From Pseudomonadota bacterium (lineage in GTDB: Bacteria; Desulfobacterota; Desulfobulbia; Desulfobulbales; Desulfocapsaceae), in assembly GCA_018821985.1 (NCBI GenBank), contig JAHJKP010000032.1, positions 186,001 to 250,000 of the forward strand: a stretch of DNA of 64,000 nucleotides, written 5' to 3'. Below, one piece after another: positions 7,245 through 51,354 of the stretch. The notes under the pieces are model-generated. The model saw only the letters and a list, made by a program, of their open reading frames with translations, did not search any database and was not told where the DNA came from. Position 1 is the stretch's first letter. Each line of letters opens with the position of its first letter. The position numbers were made by a program, and so were the translations under genes.

Positions 7245-7290
7245 AAACAAGAAAGGGCGTTTATCTTACGATAAACGCCCTTTCTTGTTT
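7245..7290. terminator. Bidirectional terminator between mog and purM
   Basis: Perfect 21-bp arms (7245-7265 and 7270-7290) around a TTAC loop, with AAACAAGAAAGGGC at the outside. It sits between two convergent genes, so it can serve both. Confidence 0.85.
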
Positions 7291-44482: not shown

Positions 44483-44502
44483 AAAAGGCGTTATGCCTTT
44501 TT
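44483..44502 (+). terminator. Terminator-like hairpin upstream of the alcohol dehydrogenase gene
   Basis: AAAAGGC, loop GTTAT, then GCCTTTTTT. It points toward the dehydrogenase gene 92 bp downstream, with no complete gene before it on this strand, so attenuation is possible. Confidence 0.45.
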
Positions 44503-44593
44503 TCTTATTTCCAAGTTCTTCTTTTTCTGTTTAGCTGTATGCATGTAAAGATTCAATACTCATCCTTCAACCTTTACCCTACAACTTACTCCC

Positions 44594-45919: not shown

Positions 45920-47227
45920 TCACCCCCGGCCCACCCCCACATATTCAAACCCGGCGGCACGTATTCTCTGAGGAGAATAAACATTGCGCAGATCAATAAA
46001 CAAGGGCACCCGCATCAAAGATTTGACGCGCTCAAGATCAATCGCCCGGTATTGATTCCATTCGGTCATCAACACCAAAGCATCGGCACCTGTGGCTGCC
46101 TCGTAAACGTTGTTGACATAAATACACTCAGGAAATAATTTTTTGGCCTCTTCCATCCCTTGAGGGTCATGCGCCTGAATTCTTGCTCCTTTTTCATGCA
46201 ACGGAGGCAGGATACTGAGAGCAGGGGCATCACGCAGATCATCTGTTTCCGGCTTAAAGGTCAAGCCAAGTACCCCTATGGTTTTACCAGCCACATCTCC
46301 GCCAAGTGCCTCTCGAATCTTTTTGACCATACCTGCCTTTTGCGCCGCATTGATCTCAACCGCTGCCGCAACAGATCTGGCAGACACACCATTCTCCTGC
46401 GCAATACGCAATAACGCCAAGGTATCTTTAGGAAAACAACTTCCTCCAAATCCAGGGCCTGGATGGAGAAACTTACCGCCGATACGACCATCCAAGCCTA
46501 TGGCCTTGGCCAGATCAACCACATCCGCCCCCACCTCTTCACAGAGATTGGCCATTTCATTAATAAAAGAGATCTTTATAGAGAGAAAGGCGTTAGCCGC
46601 ATACTTAATGAGTTCAGCGGACTCAAGTCCGGTAAAAACAAAAGGAGTGGATATGAGATAGAGGGGATCATAAATTTCTTTCATCACGGCTTGGGCAGCT
46701 ACTGATTCAGAACCAATGACGATACGATCCGGGCGCATAAAATCATTGATGGCAGCGCCTTCTCTTAAAAATTCAGGATTGGAAACTACATCAAAATCTG
46801 CCGTCGGATTTTCCTCCCTGATCAAGCGGGAAACCTGACGGGCAGTGCCGACTGGCACGGTGCTCTTATCTATTATAACTGTATACCCAGTCAGATATGG
46901 TGCAAGCTCCCTGGCTGCGGCATAAATATAAGTCAGATCCGCGTATCCATCACCACGCCGTGAGGTCGGAGTGCCCACCGCAAGAAAGACAGCAGAGGCG
47001 CTTTGGACACTGTCTGCCAATTCAGTAGTAAAGGCAAGACGACCTTCACTCACATTCTTCCGCACCAATTCCGCCAAACCGGGTTCATAAATGGGGATTT
47101 TCCCTTCCAGCAATGAGTTAATCTTCCGTTCATCCTTATCCATACAAGTGATATGATGGCCAAATTCTGCCAGACATGCACCTGTAACCAGACCGACATA
47201 CCCGGTTCCAATTATAGTAATTTTCAT
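45920..47227 (-). CDS. ugd: UDP-glucose 6-dehydrogenase
   Basis: 435 residues. The N-terminal NAD site is ITIIGTGYVGLVTGACLA and the catalytic cysteine lies in GPGFGGSCFPKDT. GLTFKPETDDLRDAPAL marks the C-terminal UDP-binding domain. It oxidises UDP-glucose to UDP-glucuronate for surface polysaccharide. GDP-mannose dehydrogenase is a less likely alternative. The DegT aminotransferase at 47.8-49.0 kb may act on related nucleotide sugars. Confidence 0.92.
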   Translation of the reverse strand: MKITIIGTGYVGLVTGACLAEFGHHITCMDKDERKINSLLEGKIPIYEPGLAELVRKNVSEGRLAFTTELADSVQSASAVFLAVGTPTSRRGDGYADLTYIYAAARELAPYLTGYTVIIDKSTVPVGTARQVSRLIREENPTADFDVVSNPEFLREGAAINDFMRPDRIVIGSESVAAQAVMKEIYDPLYLISTPFVFTGLESAELIKYAANAFLSIKISFINEMANLCEEVGADVVDLAKAIGLDGRIGGKFLHPGPGFGGSCFPKDTLALLRIAQENGVSARSVAAAVEINAAQKAGMVKKIREALGGDVAGKTIGVLGLTFKPETDDLRDAPALSILPPLHEKGARIQAHDPQGMEEAKKLFPECIYVNNVYEAATGADALVLMTEWNQYRAIDLERVKSLMRVPLFIDLRNVYSPQRIRAAGFEYVGVGRG

Positions 47228-47330
47228 AGAAGATTAATTTTACTCTATTCTTGGTTAATAAATATCACTCAAAGTGATTGTCAGGATAGATAAACAAGTT
47301 ATCAATACTCCTCCAAAAAACACCAAACTT

Positions 47331-47361
47331 GCACTTTGTATCATAATATGATACAAAGTGC
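47331..47361. promoter_or_regulatory. Perfect 31-bp palindrome, operator candidate
   Basis: GCACTTTGTATCATA, one central A, then TATGATACAAAGTGC. It lies 33 bp before the SleB-like gene and 104 bp before ugd, which is divergent. TATTAT at 47362-47367 could be a -10 box for the plus strand. No T-run follows, so a terminator is unlikely. Confidence 0.6.
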
Positions 47362-47394
47362 TATTATGAATCCAGACAATAATGGAGAAATATA

Positions 47395-47754
47395 ATGACA
47401 CTACTGGAAGGGCTTTTGTGGTTGACCCTGAACGTGTATCATGAGGCACGCTCAGAGCCACAGATCGGACAGATTGCCATTGCCCATGTGACTCTGAATC
47501 GGGCAATAAACAGAAAGATTTCCATCAAAGATGTGGTAACGCAACCATATCAATTCAGCTGGGTAAGACAGAAGTCTTTTATCCCTCACAATATTCCTGT
47601 TTTCTTGCAATGTATGCAGTCTGCATACATTGCTCTCAGCACCAATGATTTCACTGCTGGTGCAACCCATTATCATCTGAAAGATACAGCCCCTAAGTGG
47701 TCTGCCAACTTAACCTATCTCAATCAGTACGGCAGTCATAAATTTTACAGATAA
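47395..47754 (+). CDS. SleB-like cell wall hydrolase (Hydrolase_2 domain)
   Basis: 119 residues. LTLNVYHEARSEPQIGQIAI with the catalytic-type glutamate, HVTLNRAIN, YQFSW and ATHYHLKDTAPKWSANL are the conserved blocks of the SleB/Hydrolase_2 family. These enzymes cleave peptidoglycan glycan strands. No signal peptide is present, which is typical of phage or transfer-related members; no other phage gene is seen. AATGGAGAAATATA precedes the ATG. A perfect palindrome upstream suggests specific control. Confidence 0.82.
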   Translation: MTLLEGLLWLTLNVYHEARSEPQIGQIAIAHVTLNRAINRKISIKDVVTQPYQFSWVRQKSFIPHNIPVFLQCMQSAYIALSTNDFTAGATHYHLKDTAPKWSANLTYLNQYGSHKFYR

Positions 47755-47763
47755 TTACTGAAT

Positions 47764-47811
47764 AAAAAAAACAGCCTCCAGCAAATACACCATGCTGAAG
47801 GCTGTTTTTTT
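47764..47811. terminator. Bidirectional terminator between the SleB-like gene and the DegT aminotransferase
   Basis: AAACAGCCTCCAGCA and TGCTGAAGGCTGTTT pair with one mismatch around a nine-base loop, with As before and Ts after. Confidence 0.8.
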
Positions 47812-51087: not shown

Positions 51088-51354
51088 CCGTCTTTTCCAT
51101 CCAAAGATAGATATAATCTTGCGACAACGGCTTAGGTTATTTTTTCTGAATATGAATTGTTCTATTTACTCGATAGCGTGCATCATGTCCATTCCCAAAC
51201 TATACTAGTCTCGCAAAAAGTCTTTACATTAACCGATCTGGCTCTATCAATCTCCAAGTCACAATCGTACATCAGGTGAACTGAAGACTTTACAAAACAT
51301 CATAGAATCGCTTAGCTACAAGTTATTCAACCATTTCCCTCCTGATTTACTCAC

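Follow-up and report, generated by a model that had tools for sequence, protein, structure and literature searches.

The window, by which we mean the whole 64,000-nucleotide stretch of DNA analysed, carries a gene for a small SleB-like cell wall hydrolase that is divergent from a UDP-glucose/GDP-mannose dehydrogenase gene (ugd) and convergent with a DegT gene, and a perfect palindrome lies between the divergent starts of the hydrolase and ugd genes (Table 1). The hydrolase matches the Hydrolase_2 family with an E value of 1.3e-18 and 67.9 bits, above the gathering cut-off of 27 bits, and is below the curated cut-off of the NCBIfam spore_SleB equivalog TIGR02869 (40.9 vs 236.5 bits). Its residues 13-117 align with Bacillus SleB, and as this match begins at residue 13 and the Pfam match at residue 20, too few residues precede them to accommodate a signal peptide, in agreement with the preliminary description of this locus. 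GGAG at 47384-47387 is the likely ribosome-binding site, and the inverted repeat between the convergent genes, judged by its sequence, is likely a bidirectional terminator.

A hydrolase match was present in all 17 genomes of the genus and in 34 of all 58 genomes searched. The named relatives include Desulfobulbaceae, Desulfocapsa, Desulfofustis and Desulfopila, which suggests a place in the Desulfobulbales, near the sulfur-cycling Desulfocapsa. Among these relatives (80 kept of 83), a convergent DegT gene adjoins the hydrolase in 53; only PanD/PanC was found in 4, the contig ends within less than 700 bp in 8, and neither was found in the remaining 15. The hydrolase is thus a resident gene and not a stray lysis gene, and the earlier statement that it stands alone holds for the transcript but not for the locus, where DegT is a frequent neighbor. 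No regulator was found among the two neighbors scanned, ugd and DegT. The gene names xseA, FeADH, IspH, PanC and PanD were recognized by eye, and we use them here as presumed identities.

Table 1. Positions of the features discussed, in window coordinates unless a locus identifier (L) is given
Feature	Position	Strand	Remarks
ugd, UDP-glucose/GDP-mannose dehydrogenase	45920..47227	-	divergent neighbor of the hydrolase
Conserved 39-bp block upstream of the hydrolase	47329..47367	+	ungapped, recognizable in 16/17 genus members; TTGCAn 47329-47334, TnTGATAnnAA 47347-47357, yATTAT 47362-47367
TTGCAC, candidate -35	47329..47334	+	block columns 1-6; 17-nt spacer to 47352; putative promoter role
Perfect palindrome, candidate operator	47331..47361	.	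15-bp arms, 1-nt center; single copy
TACAAA, candidate -10	47352..47357	+	block columns 21-29, with TGA before it at 47349-47351; putative role
TATTAT, alternative candidate -10	47362..47367	+	TG at 47359-47360; block columns 34-39; putative role
SleB-like cell wall hydrolase	47395..47754	+	119 aa, PF07486, no signal peptide
Inverted repeat between convergent hydrolase and DegT genes	47765..47811	.	A-run and T-run at its ends
Extra leader segment	L014:425-530	-	sister genome
Extra leader segment	L016:1398-1500	+	sister genome
Extra leader segment	L017:1858-1962	-	sister genome
Extra leader segment	L021:1858-1960	-	sister genome

The palindrome reads GCACTTTGTATCATA-A-TATGATACAAAGTGC, with all 15 pairs formed around a single central base exactly as first described, and its flanks (ccaaactt and tattatga) contain no T-run on either strand, as had also been noted. 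Counting centre and loop placements with loops of 0-8, so that a single palindrome may count at several loop sizes, the window contains 27, 21 and 17 perfect placements at arms of 10, 11 and 12 bp, compared with means of 0.85, 0.175 and 0.05 in 40 dinucleotide-preserving shuffles of the window. As the shuffles gave only 0.05 placements per window even for arms of 12 bp, chance is excluded for arms of 15 bp, confirming the earlier judgment that such a structure is very unlikely to be accidental. Dyad symmetry beyond chance, here complete at 15 of 15 pairs, is one of the features expected of the operator of a dimeric transcription factor. Many identical copies at unrelated gene ends were named at the outset as an observation that would speak against an operator; in the genome, with up to 3 mismatches allowed, the palindrome matched only itself, and its shorter core gave one extra match with 3 mismatches, vs 3 matches for controls.

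Long perfect palindromes are not rare in this genome, as 304 kb of sequence (the window plus 12 other genome stretches of 20 kb) contain 8 with arms of at least 15. A loose T-tail/A-lead terminator flag marks 6 of these 8, leaving unflagged the palindrome upstream of the hydrolase and a perfect inverted repeat at 7245-7290 with arms of 21 bp and a loop of 4 nt (AAACAAGAAAGGGCGTTTATC), the longest perfect one listed for the window. Four perfect palindromes in the window have a one-base center and arms of 13-17, two of them in coding frames (5463 and 47607); the latter, at 47607-47633 with 13-bp arms, lies within the hydrolase coding sequence and is present as a 12-bp version in genomes G002 and G006. 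A genome-wide surplus of palindromes with a one-base center was considered and dropped, as the 240 kb of other genome stretches contain only one with arms of at least 11.

The palindrome is contained in a 39-bp block with the consensus TTGCAn-N12-TnTGATAnnAA-nnn-C-yATTAT and fixed internal spacing. Sites in 16 of the 17 genus members were chosen with a seed, and a motif search run without a seed arrived at this location in all 12 genomes that it covered; in the one exception, G011, the block was not found in the 295 bp available upstream. Columns T1, T2, T19, T21, A23, T24, A25, A29 and T37 are invariant in the 16-genome alignment, with single members deviating from the consensus elsewhere, G014 the most (TTATAG, TGTCATAAAAA), and the block lies 66 to 141 bases from the ATG, depending on the genome. 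The pattern TTGCA-N13-TRTGATANNAA matches once per genome in 12 of the 17, always at the hydrolase, with 0 control matches. Beyond the genus, 4 of 79 upstream regions of named relatives scored at least 9 within 160 bp, with mononucleotide shuffles as control (one of the 80 relatives, with 52 bp upstream, was dropped); three of these belong to the close clade (L054-L056) and one is another relative (L104).

The arrangement of the block is promoter-like, with 17 bases separating TTGCAn from TAnnAA, which is the spacing of sigma-70 promoters, and with TGn preceding the second hexamer. The position of the TACAAA candidate reads TATAAA or TAATAA in relatives. The match to sigma-70 is not strong for either candidate -10, and a consensus promoter scan returned 5 sites, vs 4.1 expected, with none on the plus strand at the block.

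Base pairing across the palindrome positions varies widely among the 16 aligned genomes. It is complete in the genome of the window (G000) and in G006 and is followed by 14 of 15 pairs in G012 and G013, 13 in G002, 12 in G003, 10 in G010, 9 in G015, G001 and G008, 8 in G009 and G016, 7 in G014 and G004, 6 in G005 and 5 in G007, so that symmetry is exact in 2 of 16, reaches at least 13 pairs in 5 of 16 and lies at 5-12 pairs in 11 of 16. Pairing exceeded that of shuffled arms at p<0.05 in 10 of the 16 genomes, each taken singly and uncorrected. As column composition alone gives 149.6 of 240 pairs, the consensus is itself an imperfect dyad, with a TTATCA-N5-TGATAA core and outer GCA/TGC that are perfect in G000 and G006. 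At slide 0, 74% of the cells contain standard pairs, compared with 35-49% at slides of 1-3.

Covariation beyond column composition was reached by 6 of 5000 shuffles using all 16 genomes, and by 0 of 500 in a separate score test. This signal largely vanishes on thinning the clade of the window, as the count of shuffles reaching it rises to 257 of 5000 when a single clade member is retained and to 1746 of 5000 when the clade is left out. In addition, two of five covariation measures were ordinary (both-side-change pairs, 267 of 500; pair types, 338 of 500), and slide +2 contains more cells changed on both sides than slide 0 (20 vs 18). In the protein tree, G000, G002, G006 and G012 group together (99/98), with G013 placed elsewhere (92/97). 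As G013 is outside the clade of the window, its dyad of 14 of 15 pairs, formed with different bases and altered in both arms at three of the pairs, provides the only good independent support for selected symmetry.

Taken as a whole, we consider it slightly more probable than not that the palindrome is a cis-acting control site, namely a dyad operator overlapping a promoter specific to the hydrolase gene. RNA polymerase would use TTGCAn-N17-TAnnAA or, alternatively, the TATTAT that follows it. A dimeric DNA-binding protein would occupy the dyad and so cover the stretch from -35 to -10, and the bound dimer may keep the potentially harmful hydrolase repressed pending a releasing signal. The original idea of an operator is plausible for the palindrome, and the tight repression proposed with it is a conjecture.

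The main rival, which we rank second and regard as a real but distinctly less probable possibility, is that the block is a core promoter only, in which the RNA polymerase contacts are quasi-palindromic and were made perfect in one lineage with no dimeric regulator involved, either by ordinary substitutions or by template switching during replication (quasi-palindrome correction). In favor of this rival, six of the 16 genomes keep the block with no significant dyad. Nor does the conservation of the block stand out among upstream regions of the genus, as seedless searches at equal width yielded 46.9 bits for the hydrolase (12 genomes) and at least as much for the blocks upstream of xseA (48.3 bits, 11 genomes, G012 being left out by a length or alphabet filter) and FeADH (56.2 bits, 12 genomes). 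Within the close clade, columns 10/26 read T.T in G012, G.T in G002 and G-C in G000 and G006, a series that is readable as single steps towards perfection, and template switching is reported to be able to generate perfect hairpin stems and to preserve them (PMC8794818). Against a core promoter alone, G013 has 14 of 15 pairs and carries changes in both arms at three of them, five genomes carry at least 13 pairs, and the single one-base-center palindrome in the other 240 kb gives no sign of a general correcting process. Furthermore, the protein tree joins G002 with G006, albeit weakly (85/78), and on this grouping perfection was gained twice or lost in G002.

The two comparison blocks were also recorded individually. 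The one upstream of FeADH (44497-44535, CTTTTTTCTTATTTCCAAGTTCTTCTTTTTCTGTTTAGC) is strongly conserved, with a poor row in G010, and the one upstream of the xseA-like gene (51166-51204) is conserved in most of the 11 genomes, with poor rows in G004, G008 and G010 and a variable distance to the start of 64 to 191 bases.

It is improbable that the active form is instead a hairpin, either in the RNA as part of a hydrolase leader transcribed from a promoter farther upstream or as a cruciform in supercoiled DNA. Single-strand folding predicts a 14-bp stem, at -19.2 kcal/mol for RNA (z -6.0) and -14 for DNA (z -6.4), and covariation is seen at some pairs, such as columns 6/30, where three pair types occur. 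However, the best upstream block from the seedless search overlaps the hairpin itself, the dyad is weak in 11 of 16 genomes (no more than 12 of 15 pairs), and the covariation fades as described once the clade is thinned.

The preliminary description left the target of the operator as either the hydrolase or the divergent ugd; a conserved promoter-like block tied to the hydrolase favors the first, and an operator of ugd appears very unlikely. Ugd is found divergently beside the hydrolase in 12 of the 17 genus loci, the contigs of G007 and G011 being too short to tell. In 9 of these 12, the block and the beginning of the ugd match are 95-126 bases apart (187, 308 and 317 in the other three), including G010 and G005, where the distance from the block to the hydrolase has increased to 141; these distances do not settle the target. 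Nevertheless, the block is present in G015 and G001 with FeADH rather than ugd as the upstream gene, and in G003 with no ugd found within 1.5 kb upstream, and as it is kept where ugd is absent, the block goes with the hydrolase. Read as a promoter, it also points towards the hydrolase. Finally, although 6 of the 8 longest perfect palindromes in the 304 kb bear the loose terminator flag, a transcription terminator or an interspersed repeat can be practically dismissed, as this palindrome sits between divergent starts where no gene ends, lacks the T-run that follows the G+C-rich stem of an intrinsic terminator, and has no second copy in the genome, where an interspersed repeat has several.

A search for further sites with dyad patterns, of the kind that the preliminary description had proposed, gave no convincing second target, and the genome contains no second copy of the palindrome of the sort expected for a regulon or for a regulator controlling its own gene. 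The pattern TTRTCA-N5-TGAYAA has 10 sites in the 17 genus genomes vs 4 in the control, 3 of the 10 at the hydrolase, and TATCATNNNATGATA with one mismatch allowed has 39 sites in four genomes vs 17 in the control, 4 of the 39 at the hydrolase. The looser cores elsewhere are not clearly one system, and no common theme was visible by eye around 10 loci of the 39 TATCATNNNATGATA sites, viewed as unannotated open frames. The genome of the window has two further exact TATCATNNNATGATA cores (L152 and L160). At L152:1501-1515 the sequence is TATCATAAAATGATA, near a long open frame, and G006 has a one-mismatch counterpart in a similar context (L163:1501-1515). The contexts of all 7 TTRTCA-N5-TGAYAA sites away from the hydrolase were viewed, and three of these sites form a separate dyad, ATTGTCA-N5-TGACAAT, at one shared conserved place in G016, G009 and G008 (L048, L049 and L050, 1501-1519); its arm bases differ from those of the palindrome, and it is unrelated to the hydrolase.

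In four sister genomes (G010, G003, G005 and G007), some 80 bases absent from the genome of the window lie between the block and the ATG, with the pattern AAAGTCGTCGCT...stem...AACGACCCC ahead of the ribosome-binding site; G011 retains the 3' part alone. The segment is a candidate structured leader, with folding z-scores of -2.9, -3.5, -1.9 and -1.7, respectively. Of 257 genomes of the order, 4 carry the leader pattern, in each case at the hydrolase, and the reversed control pattern had 8 matches. An Rfam scan of loci L004, L016, L017, L014, L021 and L020 at E<=1 returned two matches, both below gathering and taken as chance (Thr_leader, E 0.11; SNORD29, E 0.62, in L017 outside the leader), with none within the leader segments. 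A fuller scheme, in which a dedicated single-target regulator, co-evolving dyad halves and this putative RNA leader in sister lineages together provide two layers of gene-specific hydrolase control, is doubtful.

If the operator reading is true, the locus would represent an individually controlled resident cell-wall hydrolase, and a limited literature search found no such hydrolase control described for this group. Otherwise, the locus illustrates how a conserved promoter can be refined into a perfect palindrome in a single lineage, with the relatives showing which bases matter.

Among known systems, quasi-palindromes perfected by template switching (PMC8794818) resemble this locus in that near-perfect stems in relatives are perfect in the genome of the window and in G006. 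They differ in that the changes within the clade are of single bases, which ordinary substitution explains equally well. The hydrolase itself resembles SleB/CwlJ-type hydrolases (PF07486; Bacillus SleB, PDB 4F55) in its domain and in the conserved VY.E.R.EP stretch, and differs from them in having no signal peptide, no further domain found and a score below the NCBIfam SleB cut-off; phage endolysins resemble it as well, with 601 of 50,697 phage records matching, all at less than 60% identity. The palindrome also resembles the promoter-overlapping dyad operators of dimeric repressors, with which it shares a perfect or near-perfect dyad that spans the -35 to -10 stretch (here a candidate one) of one gene. 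Such operators are known for dimeric repressors of the TetR, Xre/cI and GntR families, and the half sites of tetO contain TATCA/TGATA as does the palindrome, with a spacing between TATCA and TGATA that differs from the five bases found here.
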